Position numbers and translations under genes: made by a program. A stretch of DNA of 44,246 nucleotides from the NCBI GenBank assembly GCA_024277115.1, contig JAJRVW010000083.1, positions 1-44,246 on the forward strand, given 5' to 3'. Source of the DNA: Calditrichota bacterium (GTDB lineage: Bacteria; Calditrichota; Calditrichia; Calditrichales; J004). This document shows positions 137-7,398 of the stretch, piece after piece. Position 1 is the stretch's first letter. Each line of letters starts with the position of its first letter. The notes under the pieces were generated by a model. The model worked only from the letters and a program-made list of their open reading frames with translations. It had not been told where the DNA came from and ran no database searches.

Positions 137-1147
137 ATGAAGACAGCGCCAAAACTTCTACTTACATCATCGCCCTTCTTAAAACAACAGGAAGACACGC
201 CGGCAGTAATGCGCCAGGTGATTTACAGCTTAATCCCTGCCCTGATTGCTGCAATCTACTTTTTTGGGATTAGCGCATTGCTGGTCATTTTTATCACCAC
301 TTTGGCAACGGTTGGCACAGAGAGGGTCTTTAATATTTCCACAAAGCAAAAGACCAACTCTTTAAAAGATTATTCCGCTTTATTGACCGGCCTATTGCTG
401 GCCATGACACTGCCTCCGGGCTTCCCATTATGGATGGCTTTTTTAGGTGGTGTAATTGCCATTGTTTTAGGCAAGCTTATTTTTGGAGGGATTGGCTCAA
501 ATATTTTTAACCCGGCTTTAGTTGGGCGCGCCTTTTTGCAATCCTCTTTTCCGGTAGCCATTACAACCTGGTCGCCGTTTTCGGATTTTAGCGGTTTCTT
601 AGAAATACGCGGCTATACCTTTACTATCCCTTTTGTAAAGGCTGGCACAGACGCAACAACGGCAGCAACACCTTTGGCGCATTTTAAATTTGATGGCATT
701 ACAACCGATACGGCCAATATCTTTTTTGGCTCCTCTGCCGGTTCCCTTGGCGAAACGATGGCTTTTTTGATTTTACTTGCGGGGATTTATTTAACTGTAC
801 GCAATTATATTAACTGGCGTATCCCGGCCGGTGTTTTCATTGCCGTGATACTTTTTGCCTCCGGCTTGCAATTAATTGATGCCGATAAATTTGCACCGCC
901 TATGTTTCATTTATTTTCCGGTGGACTAATGCTTGGGGCCATCTTTATGGCGACCGATCCGGTGTCTTCGCCCATAACACATAAAGGTTGCTGGATTTTC
1001 GGGTTGGGAGTAGGGTTTCTTGTTGTTTTGATCCGTACTTTTGGCGGCCTGCCCGAAGGTGTAATGTATGCTATTTTATTGATGAACGCGGTAACACCGT
1101 TGATAAACCGTGTTACACAACCAAGGATTTATGGCGAAGTTAAATAA
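137..1147 (+). CDS. rnfD: RnfD, membrane subunit of the Rnf electron transport complex
   Basis: RnfD is a polytopic inner-membrane subunit that carries covalently bound FMN and takes part in ion-coupled electron transfer between ferredoxin and NAD. The 336-residue length fits RnfD better than the longer NqrB. Many hydrophobic helices are visible. The conserved 'NPALVGRAF' segment lies near residues 125-133. The flavinylation motif appears as 'TTAATPLA', with Thr178 the likely FMN-linked residue. The start has an AGG five bases upstream. It is the first complete gene of a same-strand block rnfD-rnfG-rnfE-rnfA plus a small NqrM-like gene; rnfB must lie elsewhere, probably upstream as in Bacteroidota. 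Confidence 0.95.
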   Translation: MKTAPKLLLTSSPFLKQQEDTPAVMRQVIYSLIPALIAAIYFFGISALLVIFITTLATVGTERVFNISTKQKTNSLKDYSALLTGLLLAMTLPPGFPLWMAFLGGVIAIVLGKLIFGGIGSNIFNPALVGRAFLQSSFPVAITTWSPFSDFSGFLEIRGYTFTIPFVKAGTDATTAATPLAHFKFDGITTDTANIFFGSSAGSLGETMAFLILLAGIYLTVRNYINWRIPAGVFIAVILFASGLQLIDADKFAPPMFHLFSGGLMLGAIFMATDPVSSPITHKGCWIFGLGVGFLVVLIRTFGGLPEGVMYAILLMNAVTPLINRVTQPRIYGEVK

Positions 1148-1354: not shown

Positions 1355-2047
1355 TTGTCAAAAAAAACAGAAACAAAAACTGAAGAAACGGAAGAGCAGG
1401 TAAGTGGCGGTAAGATGCTTTTTTCTATGGGCACCATAGGCATAATTGCGGGCGTACTGATTGTATTTACTTTTACATTTACTATGCCTTATATCAAAGC
1501 CAATGAAGCTGCTTTTTTAGAGGAATCTATTTTTGACGTAGTGCCGGGCGCTTATACAAAAAAAGTAGTGACCCTTGATGAAAACAATACGATCATCCCG
1601 GTAACCAATCCTGACGAGGTAGCATTTAAGCTTTATTCCTGTTACGACAAGCAGGATTCTTTGGTGGGCATTGCCATTGAGGCAAGAGAGCAAGGCTTTC
1701 AGGATGTGATCAAAATTATTTACGGCTATTCCCCGGAAAAGCAAGCCGTGGTAGGTATGAAGGTTTTACAAAGCACAGAAACGCCCGGCCTTGGCGATAA
1801 GATCGAAACCGATAAAGATTTTCAGGAGAATTTTAAACATTTGGATGTAAGCCTGAATGAAGATAAATCGGCCTTAAAGGAATTGATTGTGCTTGTTAAA
1901 AATGGCAAGAAAACAAAAAAAAGCCAGATCAGCGCAATAACCGGCGCCACAATCTCATCAAAAGCTATTACAAAAATGATGAGCCGGAGTACAGCTTTAA
2001 ATGTACCGGTTATTTATAAAAATTTGGATATTTTGAAAAAAAAGTAA
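1355..2047 (+). CDS. rnfG: RnfG, FMN-binding subunit of the Rnf complex
   Basis: RnfG is a single-pass membrane protein whose periplasmic domain carries FMN on a threonine. The 230-residue product has a charged N-terminal stretch (1-20), one membrane helix (about 23-46), the conserved 'ETPGLGDK' loop at 142-149 and the flavinylation motif 'TGATIS' with Thr199 as the expected FMN attachment site. The start is TTG at 1355; AAGGG lies about ten bases before it and the reading matches the usual RnfG start before a lysine-rich leader. A gap of about 200 bases full of repeats separates it from rnfD, which is unusual for a tightly packed rnf operon. Confidence 0.94.
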   Translation: MSKKTETKTEETEEQVSGGKMLFSMGTIGIIAGVLIVFTFTFTMPYIKANEAAFLEESIFDVVPGAYTKKVVTLDENNTIIPVTNPDEVAFKLYSCYDKQDSLVGIAIEAREQGFQDVIKIIYGYSPEKQAVVGMKVLQSTETPGLGDKIETDKDFQENFKHLDVSLNEDKSALKELIVLVKNGKKTKKSQISAITGATISSKAITKMMSRSTALNVPVIYKNLDILKKK

Positions 2048-2163
2048 ACAAGAGGAAGCAACACAACTATTTGGCGCAGTTACACTGTGAAAAGAAGTAT
2101 AGGTTTTTTTTTCACTGTTGCACTCAAAATGGCAAAAGATAAAAGACACTGGAGTAAAAAGAA

Positions 2164-2811
2164 ATGCCCGAAACAAAAAATACAACACCTGAAAATATGG
2201 AAATATTTTTAAAAGGTGTATGGAAAGACAACCCGGTTTTTGTAATGCTGCTGGGTATGTGCCCGGTTCTTGCCGTTACAAATTCGGTGATCAATGCCAT
2301 CGTGATGGGCGTGGCAACAACGGCAGTGTTAATACTTTCCAATTTTCTGGTTTCGAGCCTGCGTAATTTTATCCCAAAACAGGTACGGATTGCGACGTAT
2401 ATTTTAATTATCGCCACTTTTGTGACCGTTGCGGACTATGCCATAAAAGCAGTTAGTCTGGAAGTACACAAAAGTCTGGGGGCTTTTATTTCTTTAATTG
2501 TTGTAAACTGTATTATTTTAGGTCGTGCCGAGTCCTTTGCATCTAAGAATAGTGTCGGTAAATCTGTGCTGGATGCTCTGGGGATGGGCGCCGGCTTTAC
2601 CATCGCTGTTTTGGCCCTGGGCATTGTGCGCGAAGTTCTGGGCAATGGTACATTTTTAGGATATTCACTATTTGGCGAGCATTTTCAACCGCTCGTAATA
2701 ATGATCTTGCCTGGAGGAGCCTTTTTTGTTTTGGGTGCATATCTGCTCTTTTTTAACTGGTTGAAAGAGCGAAAAGAAAAACAAGCATCAATCGAGACAA
2801 GTGCCATATAA
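2164..2811 (+). CDS. rnfE: RnfE, integral membrane subunit of the Rnf complex
   Basis: RnfE is a polytopic membrane protein that pairs with RnfA; in the homologous NQR complex the equivalents NqrD and NqrE share a membrane-buried iron centre. The N-terminal 'NPVFVMLLGMCPVLAVTNS' stretch contains the conserved cysteine of the first half-helix, and 'VVNCIILGRAE' contains the second. The length (215 aa) is typical. GGAG at 2152 sits eight bases before the ATG. The C-terminal 15 residues are charged and probably cytoplasmic. Confidence 0.95.
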   Translation: MPETKNTTPENMEIFLKGVWKDNPVFVMLLGMCPVLAVTNSVINAIVMGVATTAVLILSNFLVSSLRNFIPKQVRIATYILIIATFVTVADYAIKAVSLEVHKSLGAFISLIVVNCIILGRAESFASKNSVGKSVLDALGMGAGFTIAVLALGIVREVLGNGTFLGYSLFGEHFQPLVIMILPGGAFFVLGAYLLFFNWLKERKEKQASIETSAI

Positions 2812-2855
2812 TTAACTAATTGATCTTTTATCACTAATAATAAATAGTAAAGAAA

Positions 2856-3440
2856 ATGGTTACCGAACAATACTGGTTTATATTTTTAAACGCTGCGCTA
2901 ATTAATAACTTCGTACTTAGTTCCTTTTTAGGAATATGTCCTTTTCTCGGTGTTTCAGGAAAAGTTGAAACGGCCACACGCATGGGGGCGGCTGTAGCAT
3001 TTGTGATGTTTATTGCATCATTGGCAGCTTACGGCATACACAATCTTTTAATTTTGATCGATGCCCAGTTTTTACAACTTATTTCATACATCGTGGTGAT
3101 TGCGTCTACGGTTCAACTGGTAGAAATGATCATTAAAAAATTTAGCCCTGCCTTGTTTAAAGCGCTTGGGATATTTTTACCACTTATTACAACAAATTGC
3201 GCTATTTTAGGCCTGGCGCTTTTTCAGACCAACCGCAGTTATGATTTCTTTCAATCTATTTCATTTGCATTGGGTGCGGGACTTGGTTTTACCATCGCCT
3301 TAGTTATTATGGCCGGGATTCGGGAAGAACTGCAACTTTCTCAGGTTCCAAATGTTGTAAAAGGGGCGGCACTAACTTTGATGGTTGCCGGGATTTTATC
3401 AATGGCCTTTATGGGCTTTGCAGGTTTAGGAGGAAACTAA
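2856..3440 (+). CDS. rnfA: RnfA, integral membrane subunit of the Rnf complex
   Basis: RnfA is a six-helix membrane protein homologous to RnfE, inserted in inverted topology, and the two together hold the iron site in the membrane. The 194-residue product shows the signature 'NNFVLSSFLGICPFLGVS' near the N-terminus and 'LPLITTNCAILGLAL' mid-protein, each with its conserved cysteine. Its stop overlaps the start of the next small gene by one base (TAATG), a sign of translational coupling. No rnfB follows. Confidence 0.95.
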   Translation: MVTEQYWFIFLNAALINNFVLSSFLGICPFLGVSGKVETATRMGAAVAFVMFIASLAAYGIHNLLILIDAQFLQLISYIVVIASTVQLVEMIIKKFSPALFKALGIFLPLITTNCAILGLALFQTNRSYDFFQSISFALGAGLGFTIALVIMAGIREELQLSQVPNVVKGAALTLMVAGILSMAFMGFAGLGGN

Positions 3441-3616
3441 TGTTATTTCAGATGATTAAAGCAGCGCTGATTATAGCTTTTCTTATGGTTGGCTGGGTGA
3501 GCTTACAATATATTGTCCGTAAAAAGAAAAAACTTACTGTGGATTGCGATTTACTGGAAGATAAAAAAGGTTGCCTGGGTTGCACTGGGAATAGTTGTAG
3601 CCATAAGCACGGTTAA
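3440..3616 (+). CDS. Small membrane-anchored four-cysteine protein, NqrM-like maturation factor
   Basis: This 58-residue protein starts in the TAATG overlap with rnfA. GGAGG at 3429-3433 gives it a strong ribosome binding site. It has one N-terminal membrane helix (about 7-25, ending in 'YIVRKKKK') and a soluble tail with four cysteines: Cys36, then Cys45 and Cys48 in 'GCLGC', and Cys53 in 'NSCSHKHG'. This architecture matches NqrM (DUF539), a small anchored four-Cys protein needed for iron delivery to the NqrD/NqrE membrane site. Since RnfE and RnfA are the homologues of NqrD and NqrE, an equivalent role for Rnf is a reasonable inference. The family match is by architecture, not by alignment. 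Confidence 0.75.
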   Translation: MLFQMIKAALIIAFLMVGWVSLQYIVRKKKKLTVDCDLLEDKKGCLGCTGNSCSHKHG

Positions 3617-3676
3617 GTTTTATCATTTTTCTGATGTCACTCAATTAGAACCCTTCTCTCCACAGCCATACGCCCC

Positions 3677-3716
3677 ATCCCTGATTCTCAGGTTGTAAAT
3701 CCCTATAATCAGGGAT
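3677..3716. repeat. Inverted repeat downstream of the rnf operon
   Basis: A perfect 10-bp inverted pair, ATCCCTGATT at 3677-3686 and AATCAGGGAT at 3707-3716, encloses a 20-base loop; a smaller hairpin CCTGA-TTC-TCAGG sits inside. No T-run follows on the plus strand, so it is not a classical intrinsic terminator for rnf, but it may stabilise or end the mRNA. Confidence 0.6.
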
Positions 3717-3789
3717 AAAAAGAAAACAAGCGTTTAGAGAAAGATTTTCTTTTTTCACCACCATCAAAATAATCATAGCATACAAAAAA

Positions 3790-4254
3790 ATGGATTACAG
3801 CTTAACAATCTTTCGACAAACACGCCAAAATATTTTTGATTTAACCCGCCAACTTAATGACAATCAATTGCTTAAAATTCCACAAAACCATCGTAACAAT
3901 ATTTTATGGAATATGGGGCATGTAGTCACAATACAACAACTCCTCGTTTATCGTTCCATTGGATTGGATACAAACGTGCCGGAAGATTTTATTAAAAATT
4001 TTAAAAAAGATAGTAGCCCGCAAAACTGGGAGTCCCCACCGGATATACAGGAAGTTAGAAATGCACTAATTGATACCTCCAAAAAGTTTTTATCCGATTT
4101 TAAAAATGGCCTGTTCGAGAATACAATCTTGCAAATGAAATTTAAAATGATATTTGGCGTAACTGTTACAACTTCCAGCGAGGCCATATTATTTAACAAC
4201 ACACACGAAGCAATGCATCTTGGAATTATTATGTCCATAATTAAACAAATCTGA
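3790..4254 (+). CDS. DinB-like four-helix metal-binding protein
   Basis: The 154-residue protein fits the DinB/YfiT-like superfamily, metal-binding four-helix bundles often acting as thiol-dependent transferases. The three expected metal-ligand histidines are visible: His44 in 'WNMGHVV', and His139 and His143 in the 'HEAMH' motif near the C-terminus. The substrate cannot be inferred. It stands alone, 173 bases after the small rnf-linked gene and 164 bases before the response regulator, so it is probably a separate transcription unit. Confidence 0.75.
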   Translation: MDYSLTIFRQTRQNIFDLTRQLNDNQLLKIPQNHRNNILWNMGHVVTIQQLLVYRSIGLDTNVPEDFIKNFKKDSSPQNWESPPDIQEVRNALIDTSKKFLSDFKNGLFENTILQMKFKMIFGVTVTTSSEAILFNNTHEAMHLGIIMSIIKQI

Positions 4255-4418
4255 TTTAGCCTTTCTATGATTTTACCAGCCACAAGATAGCCCACGAAAA
4301 AGAACCATACCGCAATCAATTTCATTGATCATCAATCAACCAATAAAACAATCTAAGTAATTTTGTTTTTAACGTTACCGATAACAAATAAAAATTAAAA
4401 TACTTAAAGGACCTCCCC

Positions 4419-4916
4419 ATGATTGATGCACCTTGCCCTGTTGATTTTGATAAATCTCTTGTTTTAATTGCAGACGACAACCCAGTAACATTAAAGCTTT
4501 TAACAACCTTCCTTAAAAAAGAGGGCCTGAGGTATATAACCTGTGATAATGGCAATGATGCGCTTAGGCTTGCCAAAGAAAAATTGCCCGACCTAATTTT
4601 ACTGGATATTATGATGCCCGGTACAGATGGTTATGAAACTTGCAGGCTGCTAAAAAAGGAGGTGAGTACCCTGGAAATTCCGGTCATCTTTTTAACAGCC
4701 AAAGCCGATTCGTTTGATAAAATAAAAGGTTTTGAAGCCGGGGCGGTGGATTATATTACAAAACCGTTTGAAAATTTAGAGGTAATTCTGCGGATTAAAA
4801 CCCAGTTAAAATTAAAAAAAGCGATGGATAAGTTGAATGAGTACGTCCATTGGTTGGAACAAGTTATGAACAAAGAGACGGAGAAAAAAAAAGAACTTTG
4901 CGAAGAAGCCGTATAA
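4419..4916 (+). CDS. Response regulator, receiver domain plus short coiled tail
   Basis: Residues 14-130 form a CheY-like receiver: acidic pair Asp19/Asp20, phospho-acceptor Asp63 in 'LILLDIMMPG', the Thr of 'VIFLTAK', and Lys of 'YITKPF'. The last 35 residues are a charged helix ('KKAMDKLNEYVHWLEQVMNK'), like the linker that normally leads to a kinase or cyclase domain, but the gene ends there. AAAGGA precedes the ATG by about nine bases. No kinase is adjacent, so the partner is unknown. Its stop lies three bases from the stop of the convergent PHP gene. Confidence 0.9.
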   Translation: MIDAPCPVDFDKSLVLIADDNPVTLKLLTTFLKKEGLRYITCDNGNDALRLAKEKLPDLILLDIMMPGTDGYETCRLLKKEVSTLEIPVIFLTAKADSFDKIKGFEAGAVDYITKPFENLEVILRIKTQLKLKKAMDKLNEYVHWLEQVMNKETEKKKELCEEAV

Positions 4917-4919
4917 TTG

Positions 4920-5771
4920 TTAAGAAAGCGCCGCTTTTAAATCAAGAAAAACCTGATTTGGAACATTGAGGTTGCCACGGCCAATCCCCAGCTCAGTATC
5001 CGGTTTTATACTTCCATGAAAATCTGACCCGCCTGAAATAAGCAGATTACTTCTTTGTGCAGCATTAAGCAGATAATTTGTAAAATTTCGTGTATGTGAG
5101 GCATAGTATGCCTCTACACCGTCAAGACCTATTGATTTTAATTCTTTTAGAAATGCTTCGGTATCTTTGTATGTTTTCTGCTTCAGGCTTACAGGGTGTG
5201 CCAGGATCGCCAGTCCTTTTGCTTTATGGATTAGGTCTATGGCCGTCTGTAATTTCAATTTTTTTTTTGCCACATAGCCAGGCCGTCCCTTTGATAAAAA
5301 TTTATTGAAGGCTTCCCAAACACTGCTCACAACTTTTTTATCCATTAGCAATTTTGCAAGATGTGGCCGCCCGGCGCTTCCCTGACCTACGATAATATCC
5401 AGTTCGTCCTTTTTTACATCAATTCCATAATCTTGTAATTTTTGTATAATTGAGTAAGCCCTGCCCTGTCTGGCATTTCTTAATTCATCGAGGGTAGAGG
5501 TGAGTTCATCATTTTCAAGATTGAGGAAGAGCCCCAATAGATGTAAATGGGCGGTTCCTGGCAATTCGATATCAATACTAAACTCTACGCCGGGCACAAA
5601 TTCTACATTTAAATTACGCACATAATCTTGTGCAATCTTATTTGCACCAATCTCATCATGATCGGTGATGGCAATGGCTGTCAGTTTATAATCTTCTGCT
5701 TTTTGGATGAGCTCTTGCGGAGTTAGCGTGCCGTCTGAAAAGTTTGTATGTGTGTGAAGATCGACCGCCAT
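4920..5771 (-). CDS. PHP-domain phosphoesterase
   Basis: PHP-domain proteins of this size hydrolyse phosphoesters, for example 3',5'-nucleoside bisphosphates or RNA 5' ends (YciV/RNase AM group). Metal-site residues are clear: 'DLHTHTNFSDG' (His6, His8, Asp13), 'AITDHDE' (Asp37, His38), and 'LAHPV' and 'SGGSDFHG' further on. The 283-residue length is normal. The ATG lies in a TAATG overlap with the stop of the preceding 66-codon gene, so the two are co-translated. The precise substrate is not determinable. Confidence 0.88.
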   Translation of the reverse strand: MAVDLHTHTNFSDGTLTPQELIQKAEDYKLTAIAITDHDEIGANKIAQDYVRNLNVEFVPGVEFSIDIELPGTAHLHLLGLFLNLENDELTSTLDELRNARQGRAYSIIQKLQDYGIDVKKDELDIIVGQGSAGRPHLAKLLMDKKVVSSVWEAFNKFLSKGRPGYVAKKKLKLQTAIDLIHKAKGLAILAHPVSLKQKTYKDTEAFLKELKSIGLDGVEAYYASHTRNFTNYLLNAAQRSNLLISGGSDFHGSIKPDTELGIGRGNLNVPNQVFLDLKAALS

Positions 5772-5971
5772 TATAAATACCCTAAATCTTTCAATCGTTG
5801 ATTTACCTCATCCGAAATTGGAACATCCTGACTGTTCTTTTTACTTGTGTTCTTTTCTAAATAATCTTCCAAAACAAACTCGATGAGTTCATTAACGGTC
5901 TTAAAACTTGTCTGCGTAAGATGCTCTTTTAAACGTATTAATAAGGCATCATTTAAGAAATTATTATCCAC
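5771..5971 (-). CDS. Small ribbon-helix-helix-like protein coupled to the PHP gene
   Basis: This 66-residue protein has an N-terminal stretch with the spacing of a CopG/Arc-type ribbon-helix-helix ('LLIRLKEHLTQTSFKTVNEL' then 'IEFVLEDYLEK'), a polar linker, and the tail 'NQRLKDLGYL'. It resembles small bacterial and archaeal proteins that end in 'RLRDLGYL'; this is recollection of a pattern, not an alignment. Its stop overlaps the PHP gene's start by one base. DNA binding is possible, but the short first strand is weak, so the function is left open. Confidence 0.65.
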   Translation of the reverse strand: MDNNFLNDALLIRLKEHLTQTSFKTVNELIEFVLEDYLEKNTSKKNSQDVPISDEVNQRLKDLGYL

Positions 5972-6042
5972 AACCTGCTTGTTTTTTTATTTTTAAAGGA
6001 TTAATTCAGAAGATACAATCTATGAAATGAATGGTTTTTGAC

Positions 6043-6072
6043 AAAAAAAAAGGCGGACTAAATCCGCCTTTT
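6043..6072 (-). terminator. Intrinsic terminator after the exopolysaccharide precursor genes
   Basis: Read on the minus strand, AAAGGCGGA and TCCGCCTTT form a perfect 9-bp stem around a 5-base loop, followed by a run of about nine T. It lies 15 bases beyond the stop of the UDP-sugar dehydrogenase gene at 6088 and ends the block transcribed from the right. Confidence 0.92.
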
Positions 6073-6087
6073 AAGTGTTTATTTTAA

Positions 6088-7398
6088 TTAAGCTTTAACA
6101 ATCTTATCTCTGCCGTTTGTCACATCTTGCGTCGCATTACGGGTATCCACAATCAGCTTGGAATGTTCCACAATAAAATCCCATTCATAAACCGAGTGAT
6201 CAGTTGAGATTAGAACACAATCAAAGCTTGCAAGGTTTTCGGCTGTCAACTCAACACTTTTTTTCATAATATCATAATGGTGCATATTGGGCAGTTCCGG
6301 CACATGCGGATCGTTGTAATCTACTTCGGCCCCTTTGGCCAATAAAATCTCCATCAATTTAAAGGATGGTGATTCACGCGGGTCATCAATATCCTTTTTA
6401 TAAGCAGCGCCCAGCACTAATACCTTGGAACCTTTAAGGCTTTTTCCATGATCGTTGAGTGCATCCATCACTTTATTTATAACCCAGAAAGGCATGTTTG
6501 TATTTACTTCGCCGGCAAGTTCGATAAAACGTGTGTTCATTTCAAATTCGCGCGCTTTCCATGTAAGGTAAAATGGGTCAATTGGGATACAATGGCCACC
6601 AAGCCCAGGCCCTGGATAAAAGGCCATATAGCCAAACGGTTTGGTTTTCGCTGCGTTTATAACTTCCCAAACATCAATTCCCATTTTATCAAAAATCATT
6701 TTCATTTCATTTACAAGGGCAATGTTTACGCTACGGAAAATATTTTCCAGTAGTTTCGTTGCTTCCGCTGCCTGGCTGCTGGAAACAGGTACTGTGCTCA
6801 CAATAACCTGATTATACAATGCAGAAGCCAACTGACGCGCGTACTCCGTATTGGCACCAACAACTTTGGGAATGGTGTGTGTATTAAAATTTGGATTATT
6901 GGGATCTTCCCGTTCAGGTGAAAATGCAACCCAAAAATCGGTGTCGGCCTTTAGCCCCGATTCTTCCAAAATTGGTTTTAAGACTTCTTCCGTTGTTCCG
7001 GGATACGTTGAACTTTCCAATACGATAAGCTGGCCCTTACGAATATGTGGCGCCAGGTTTTTAGCTGTTCCAATTATATAGGACATATCCGGTTCACGAT
7101 GCTTTGTTAGCGGCGTTGGTACAGCAATCAAAATACAGTCGGCTTCTTTAATACGTGTAAAATCTGTAGTTGCCTCAAAAAGACCCGTATCCCTAACCGA
7201 TTTTACCCGATTCTCATCGATATGTTTTATGTACGATTTTCCATCATTTAACATGGTCACTTTGCGGTCATCAATATCAAAACCGATTGTCTTAATATCG
7301 CGTTCTACAAATTCCATTAATAAGGGTAATCCAACATAGCCAAGCCCCACAACCGCGATCGTAGCTTTTTTGTCATTTATGCTATTTAGTAATTCCAT
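6088..7398 (-). CDS. wbpA: UDP-N-acetylglucosamine 6-dehydrogenase type nucleotide-sugar dehydrogenase
   Basis: This 436-residue enzyme belongs to the UDP-glucose/GDP-mannose dehydrogenase family and oxidises C6 of a nucleotide sugar to a uronic acid using NAD. It has an N-terminal Rossmann motif ('VVGLGYVGLPL'), the 'ESSTYPGTTEEVL' segment typical of the WbpA branch that acts on UDP-GlcNAc, and the catalytic Cys270 in 'GLGGHCIPIDP'. It lies 11 bases downstream of ugd with AGAGG before its ATG, so the two are co-transcribed. The product would feed capsule or exopolysaccharide synthesis. UDP-ManNAc is an alternative substrate. Confidence 0.85.
   Translation of the reverse strand: MELLNSINDKKATIAVVGLGYVGLPLLMEFVERDIKTIGFDIDDRKVTMLNDGKSYIKHIDENRVKSVRDTGLFEATTDFTRIKEADCILIAVPTPLTKHREPDMSYIIGTAKNLAPHIRKGQLIVLESSTYPGTTEEVLKPILEESGLKADTDFWVAFSPEREDPNNPNFNTHTIPKVVGANTEYARQLASALYNQVIVSTVPVSSSQAAEATKLLENIFRSVNIALVNEMKMIFDKMGIDVWEVINAAKTKPFGYMAFYPGPGLGGHCIPIDPFYLTWKAREFEMNTRFIELAGEVNTNMPFWVINKVMDALNDHGKSLKGSKVLVLGAAYKKDIDDPRESPSFKLMEILLAKGAEVDYNDPHVPELPNMHHYDIMKKSVELTAENLASFDCVLISTDHSVYEWDFIVEHSKLIVDTRNATQDVTNGRDKIVKA

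Follow-up and report, generated by a model that had tools for sequence, protein, structure and literature searches.

Does the small gene that overlaps the end of rnfA in a Calditrichota bacterium serve the RNF complex, and in what capacity? The window, that is, the whole stretch of 44,246 nucleotides that was analyzed (contig JAJRVW010000083.1), carries the following features around this gene.

137 to 1147, plus strand: rnfD (TIGR01946, 339 bits).
1355 to 2047, plus strand: rnfG, with a TGAT flavinylation-type motif (PF04205 FMN_bind; TIGR01947 just below cut-off).
2164 to 2811, plus strand: rnfE, with C33 and C116 as predicted [2Fe-2S] ligands (TIGR01948, 240 bits over cut-off).
2856 to 3440, plus strand: rnfA, with C28 and C115 as predicted [2Fe-2S] ligands (TIGR01943, 243 bits over cut-off).
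3428 to 3433, plus strand: AGGAGG, a perfect ribosome-binding site within rnfA, 6 nucleotides before the ATG of the small gene (read from the sequence).
3440 to 3616, plus strand: the rnfA-linked small cysteine-rich membrane protein, 58 amino acids (translation; orthologues after rnfA).
3443 to 3529, plus strand: its predicted single membrane helix, residues 2-30, with the family's W19-x3-Q23 (AlphaFold2; alignment A3).
3545 to 3598, plus strand: its cysteine tail, C36 (in a subgroup only) and C45-x2-C48-x4-C53 (family core) (alignments A3 and A5).
3790 to 4254, plus strand: the next gene downstream, of the DinB superfamily, with a four-helix metal-binding fold (PF12867, 9e-19).

The product of the small gene, MLFQMIKAALIIAFLMVGWVSLQYIVRKKKKLTVDCDLLEDKKGCLGCTGNSCSHKHG, has cysteines at residues 36, 45, 48 and 53. 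Its ATG overlaps the rnfA stop as TAATG at 3438-3442, and this overlap and the AGGAGG inside rnfA indicate that the small gene is translationally coupled to rnfA. An AlphaFold2 prediction with 45 homologues gave one confident helix at residues 2-30 (pLDDT about 95 at residues 1-20 and 84 at 21-30), in which W19 is invariant and Q23 nearly invariant in the alignment. The helix is followed by a basic flank, RKKKK, and then by the tail with the four cysteines, which was predicted at low confidence and without structure. The preliminary description of a 58-residue reading frame with one helix and four cysteines overlapping the rnfA stop was therefore confirmed by translation, structure prediction and the sequence itself.

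We asked whether the gene is real. At the same position, a sister species of the same genus (G001) encodes a protein with 82% identity, and the two copies differ by 12 nonsynonymous changes in 141 sites versus 27 synonymous changes in 33 sites, demonstrating that the gene is under purifying selection. A reading frame with a helix and a cysteine tail followed rnfA in 59 of 80 loci from named genomes but none of the other 342 gene ends of these loci, a count made by calling ATG, GTG and TTG reading frames under strict shape rules, independently of homology. A chance reading frame is ruled out by the selection and by this control.

Orthologues lie directly after rnfA in G001 to G005, G030, G036 and G037, and a profile placed the small gene beside rnfA in 70 of the 80 named loci. 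These loci were obtained by scanning named GTDB genomes with the RnfA of the window and hold the most similar RnfAs, so that the set is biased toward RnfAs resembling that of the window; a set of 385 genomes served as a counterweight. The latter was searched with a profile of ten sequences, all from Calditrichota. The five best matches outside the class (E values from 4e-12 to 2e-3) and a further one in G275 (0.016) were all directly after rnfA, all four profile matches in another phylum adjoined rnfA, and every match that could be placed did so except those in G028 and G038. Genomes with the gene after rnfA belong to Calditrichota, Bacteroidota (Marivirga, Roseivirga and Algoriphagus), Hydrogenedentota, Proteobacteria (Thiothrix, Thiodiazotropha and Woeseiaceae among the Gammaproteobacteria; also Rhodocyclaceae), Planctomycetes (CA13), Fibrobacterota, Acidobacteriota and Spirochaetes.

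The core of the family is W-x3-Q in the helix and three cysteines, usually spaced C-x2-C-x(1-6)-C. Among 72 members, the tail has four cysteines in 50, three in 17 and five in 5. The four-cysteine pattern that had been proposed thus holds for the subgroup of the window, while in the wider family only the last three cysteines are common to all. The 15 residues after the helix contain on average 2.6 lysines and arginines in the 72 members, indicating by the positive-inside rule that the cysteine tail is cytoplasmic. No model in Pfam (2025) or NCBIfam (2026) takes these proteins, a PDB sequence search returned nothing relevant, and the literature searched, which included few subscription papers, describes no such protein for RNF. 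Judged by sequence, the rnfA-linked small proteins are a real and uncatalogued family.

A tree of 237 RnfA and NqrE proteins, which included an independent genome sample of 118 'wide' RnfAs cut at about 235 bits, showed how the family is distributed. All 73 RnfAs with the gene fell into one RnfA clade of 88 members (SH-aLRT 99), and none of the 149 RnfA and NqrE proteins outside the clade, including all NqrEs, had it. Presence and absence of the gene required at least 10 changes of state on this tree. The expectation that the gene would co-occur with rnf rather than nqr was borne out by these numbers and by the 70 named loci. The gene is not consistently absent from related rnf operons within the clade, but outside it most RNFs lack it, for example the clostridial and Caldithrix types in our sample. 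Rsx of E. coli is not known to have such a small gene either. Many of the named bearers are aerobic, which hints that oxygen exposure may be the reason why only one RNF clade would need the small protein.

Fifteen RnfAs inside the clade have no such gene beside rnfA. Two of them have a degenerate candidate (a 56-residue CxC protein in contig C178 of the genome of the window, G000, and a 16.5-bit match in G315), and several others come from the second RNF operon of a Calditrichota genome that carries the gene in its first. In G021 and G023, a genome-wide profile search found no family member. Conversely, G028 and G038 keep the small gene and a hemerythrin gene beside the same type of ferredoxin-domain gene, with rnfB-rnfA missing there; G028 has another RNF elsewhere in its genome. 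We also observed, in a third RNF operon of G001 (contig C7; L061, positions +162 to 371 after rnfA), a 69-residue one-helix reading frame with three cysteines, to which the family profile gave no match.

The RNF operon of the window appears to be split between contigs. Because the contig starts just upstream of rnfD, where a short tttaatga tandem repeat is found at positions 50-78, we place rnfC, a giant POR-like gene and rnfB on another contig. Complete loci (G001, G030, G036 and G279) are arranged as rnfB, a giant POR-related Fe-S protein, rnfC-D-G-E-A and the small gene, with 2-oxoacid oxidoreductase genes upstream of rnfB. In G001 (contig C11; L386, positions 1622-6091), the interval between rnfB and rnfC encodes a giant protein of about 1500 residues with weak POR and several Fer4 matches, apparently a degenerate pyruvate:ferredoxin oxidoreductase. 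The second RNF operon of the genome of the window (C178; L076, L387) consists of rnfB, a classical PFOR of 1635 residues in the place of the giant, rnfC-D-G-E-A and, downstream, an NAD-binding oxidoreductase; the 56-residue one-helix CxC reading frame, which separates its rnfA from the oxidoreductase gene, resembles a family member that has degenerated.

The genes that follow the small gene vary. It is succeeded in Bacteroidota by an NAD-binding oxidoreductase and rnfB, and in four loci (G143, G092, G275 and L230) by apbE. The apbE gene serves flavin attachment in RNF and NQR, and nqr operons with nqrM have it as a companion too. In G028, G036 and G038 the next gene encodes a hemerythrin-domain protein (L388, 7468-7929; L396, 12606-13073), and a DinB-superfamily gene takes its place in the window and in G002 to G005, where it is a conserved neighbor. 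In two Gammaproteobacteria (L220 and L221) a PEP-synthase-like gene comes next, which suggests that their RNF feeds ferredoxin to pyruvate/PEP metabolism.

What, then, does the small protein do? RNF, a widespread enzyme that transfers electrons and pumps ions, holds a [2Fe-2S] cluster between the two subunits RnfA and RnfE, and the related NQR branch has an assembly factor, NqrM, which sets a precedent for a small protein in this role and is the only helper that a review of the subject reports for placing the buried cluster (PMC12174285). The RnfA of the window has exactly two cysteines (C28 and C115), as does its RnfE (C33 and C116), and these four are the ones predicted to hold the cluster, so that the ligands appear intact. 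The position of the small gene, its coupling to rnfA, the cytoplasmic cysteines, the apbE neighbor, the intact ligands and the NqrM precedent together make delivery to RnfA/RnfE the best reading. We infer that the small protein is a factor that delivers iron or a cluster to the RnfA/RnfE site, like NqrM in function, and consider the chances of this to be evenly balanced. The protein would be co-made with RnfA through translational coupling and anchored in the inner membrane by its one helix, with the cysteine tail in the cytoplasm. The C-x2-C-x(n)-C tail would bind iron or a nascent [2Fe-2S] unit, which would then be passed to the intramembrane four-cysteine site that RnfA and RnfE form together; metal binding, the recipient and the sequence of steps are our proposal. 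Several observations count against delivery: most RNFs have the same cluster without the gene; some members of the clade have no such gene beside rnfA, and none is seen genome-wide by profile in G021 and G023; the gene persists in G028 and G038 without rnfBCDGEA at the locus; and the similarity to the NqrM profile is confined to the helix.

A permanent accessory subunit would give the same genomic pattern as a delivery factor. Its helix would pack on RnfA/RnfE, and a cluster or metal in its tail would relay electrons, coming from RnfB or from the large POR-like partner of the clade, or would stabilize the complex. Strict adjacency and translational coupling to rnfA agree with such a role, as does the confinement of the gene to one RnfA clade, in whose operons POR/Kor-type genes are found as well. 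The four cysteines in 50 of the 72 tails would suffice for a cluster, and the profile resembles weakly (89%) the N-terminus of RnfB, a transmembrane helix with CGxCG. However, 17 of the 72 tails have only three cysteines and the spacing varies, the tail is predicted without structure, and RnfB is already present. Because a few members of the clade do without the protein, we regard it as more like a factor than like a core redox subunit, and the patchy loss together with the orphan copies in G028 and G038, which have no adjacent rnf, favors a factor acting in trans. The subunit role, the main rival of delivery, seems less likely to us.

Another idea arose because no rnfB was seen close upstream of rnfC: that the small protein is a mini-RnfB replacing a missing one. 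Like the N-terminus of RnfB (helix and PF04060), it has a membrane helix followed by a CxxCxxxxC-like motif, and in many other RNF operons it is rnfB that follows rnfA. Unlike RnfB, it lacks the fourth, distal cysteine; neither the four-cysteine Fe-S domain PF04060 nor any ferredoxin domain was found in the 58 residues. Replacement is ruled out, because a genuine RnfB is encoded in the same operons, further upstream or, in Bacteroidota, downstream; the small protein is therefore no substitute for RnfB and is not needed for electron input.

Among the profiles tried, the FeoB-associated cysteine-rich proteins (PF12669) are nearest to the family by profile comparison. Both have one helix and then a short cysteine cluster, and hhalign gave 96% and a score of 44, the best of those tried, over 40 columns at 5% identity, against scores of 34 for the RnfB N-terminus and 32 for NqrM. 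Eight of 25 members match PF12669 weakly (best E value 8e-4), and hemerythrin or DinB genes, which encode metal-binding four-helix bundles, lie downstream in several Calditrichota. The small protein might accordingly be of the FeoB-associated type and serve general iron supply, or protection from redox stress or oxygen, near RNF rather than at one site. No function has been established for PF12669 itself (PMC8749426). We consider membership in the FeoB-associated type quite improbable, since the matches fall below the curated cut-off (11.5 bits for the protein of the window, with a cut-off of 27), no member was found beside feoB in the genomic contexts viewed, nearly all placed members adjoin rnfA, and the W-x3-Q signature sets the family apart. 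Moreover, the genome of the window encodes a separate PF12669 protein elsewhere (contig C73, 27.6 bits).

The preliminary description had called the protein NqrM-like, and in build this stands: both are small one-helix proteins with the C-terminus inside, a basic flank and a cytoplasmic cysteine tail, as judged from AlphaFold2 and from the lysine, arginine and cysteine counts, and both genes lie beside the operon for the subunits holding the intramembrane [2Fe-2S], sometimes with apbE. In sequence it does not. At E≤1, the NqrM profile (PF04400, formerly DUF539) matched neither the protein of the window nor a single one of 25 members. We took the biology of NqrM from the review cited above and its cysteine pattern from PF04400 matches in our sample (set A4), in which G(S/T)CGG after the helix, with CxC/CxxC further downstream, is invariant, (S/T)CGG following the glycine; this GSCGG-type motif is absent from all members of the family alignment, which have W-x3-Q and C-x2-C-x(1-6)-C. 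The lack of NqrM-type cysteine spacing thus speaks against homology but not against a similar function.

Genomic context also separates the two, the small gene being tied to rnfA rather than to nqr. PF04400 proteins were found beside apbE and/or nqrF (G321, G088, G376, G254, G311, G072 and G121) and, where context was readable, only at nqr-type loci. G376 has NqrM after nqrF and a family member after rnfA, showing that the two coexist as separate genes. None of the 40 genomes of the class of the window has a PF04400 protein, and none of the nqrE-nqrF loci of the class has a small gene. The class does have NQR operons (C173 in the genome of the window, and others), so that NQR there must mature without NqrM or by something else.

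An hhalign comparison of 70 members with NqrM gave 88% and a score of 32 over 24 columns, in the helix only; RnfB N-termini and FeoB-associated proteins did equally well or better, and with the missing PF04400 match and motif this leads us to reject NqrM as a family assignment. Because the values for NqrM, RnfB and PF12669 each exceed 60 column-shuffled controls, which keep the composition of helix and tail, we assign descent from none of them. If the protein were a genuine NqrM that diverged strongly while following the RnfA/RnfE branch from a shared ancestor, the agreement in build, size and topology and in genomic logic would be explained, but without GSCGG or a PF04400 match, and with an alignment confined to the helix, this reading is highly unlikely.

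Taken together, the delivery reading can be extended, more tentatively, to an unrecognized multi-phylum family of RNF-specific factors for inserting a metal cluster, with no common descent with NqrM, in an RNF clade whose operons are joined to 2-oxoacid:ferredoxin oxidoreductase genes; the two branches of RNF/NQR would have recruited their helpers independently. The earlier idea of a dedicated RnfA/RnfE factor in this lineage gains from the linkage to rnfA and reaches well beyond one lineage, into many phyla, yet it covers one RNF clade only, and its iron-centre function is what we propose rather than observe. The family is a candidate helper for placing the buried RnfA/RnfE [2Fe-2S] in a large branch of RNF. 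Since this branch includes cultured and genome-sequenced bacteria such as Marivirga sericea and Thiothrix fructosivorans, the question reduces to a single gene. When these RNFs are expressed in other hosts, a missing helper may explain an inactive enzyme, as with NQR.
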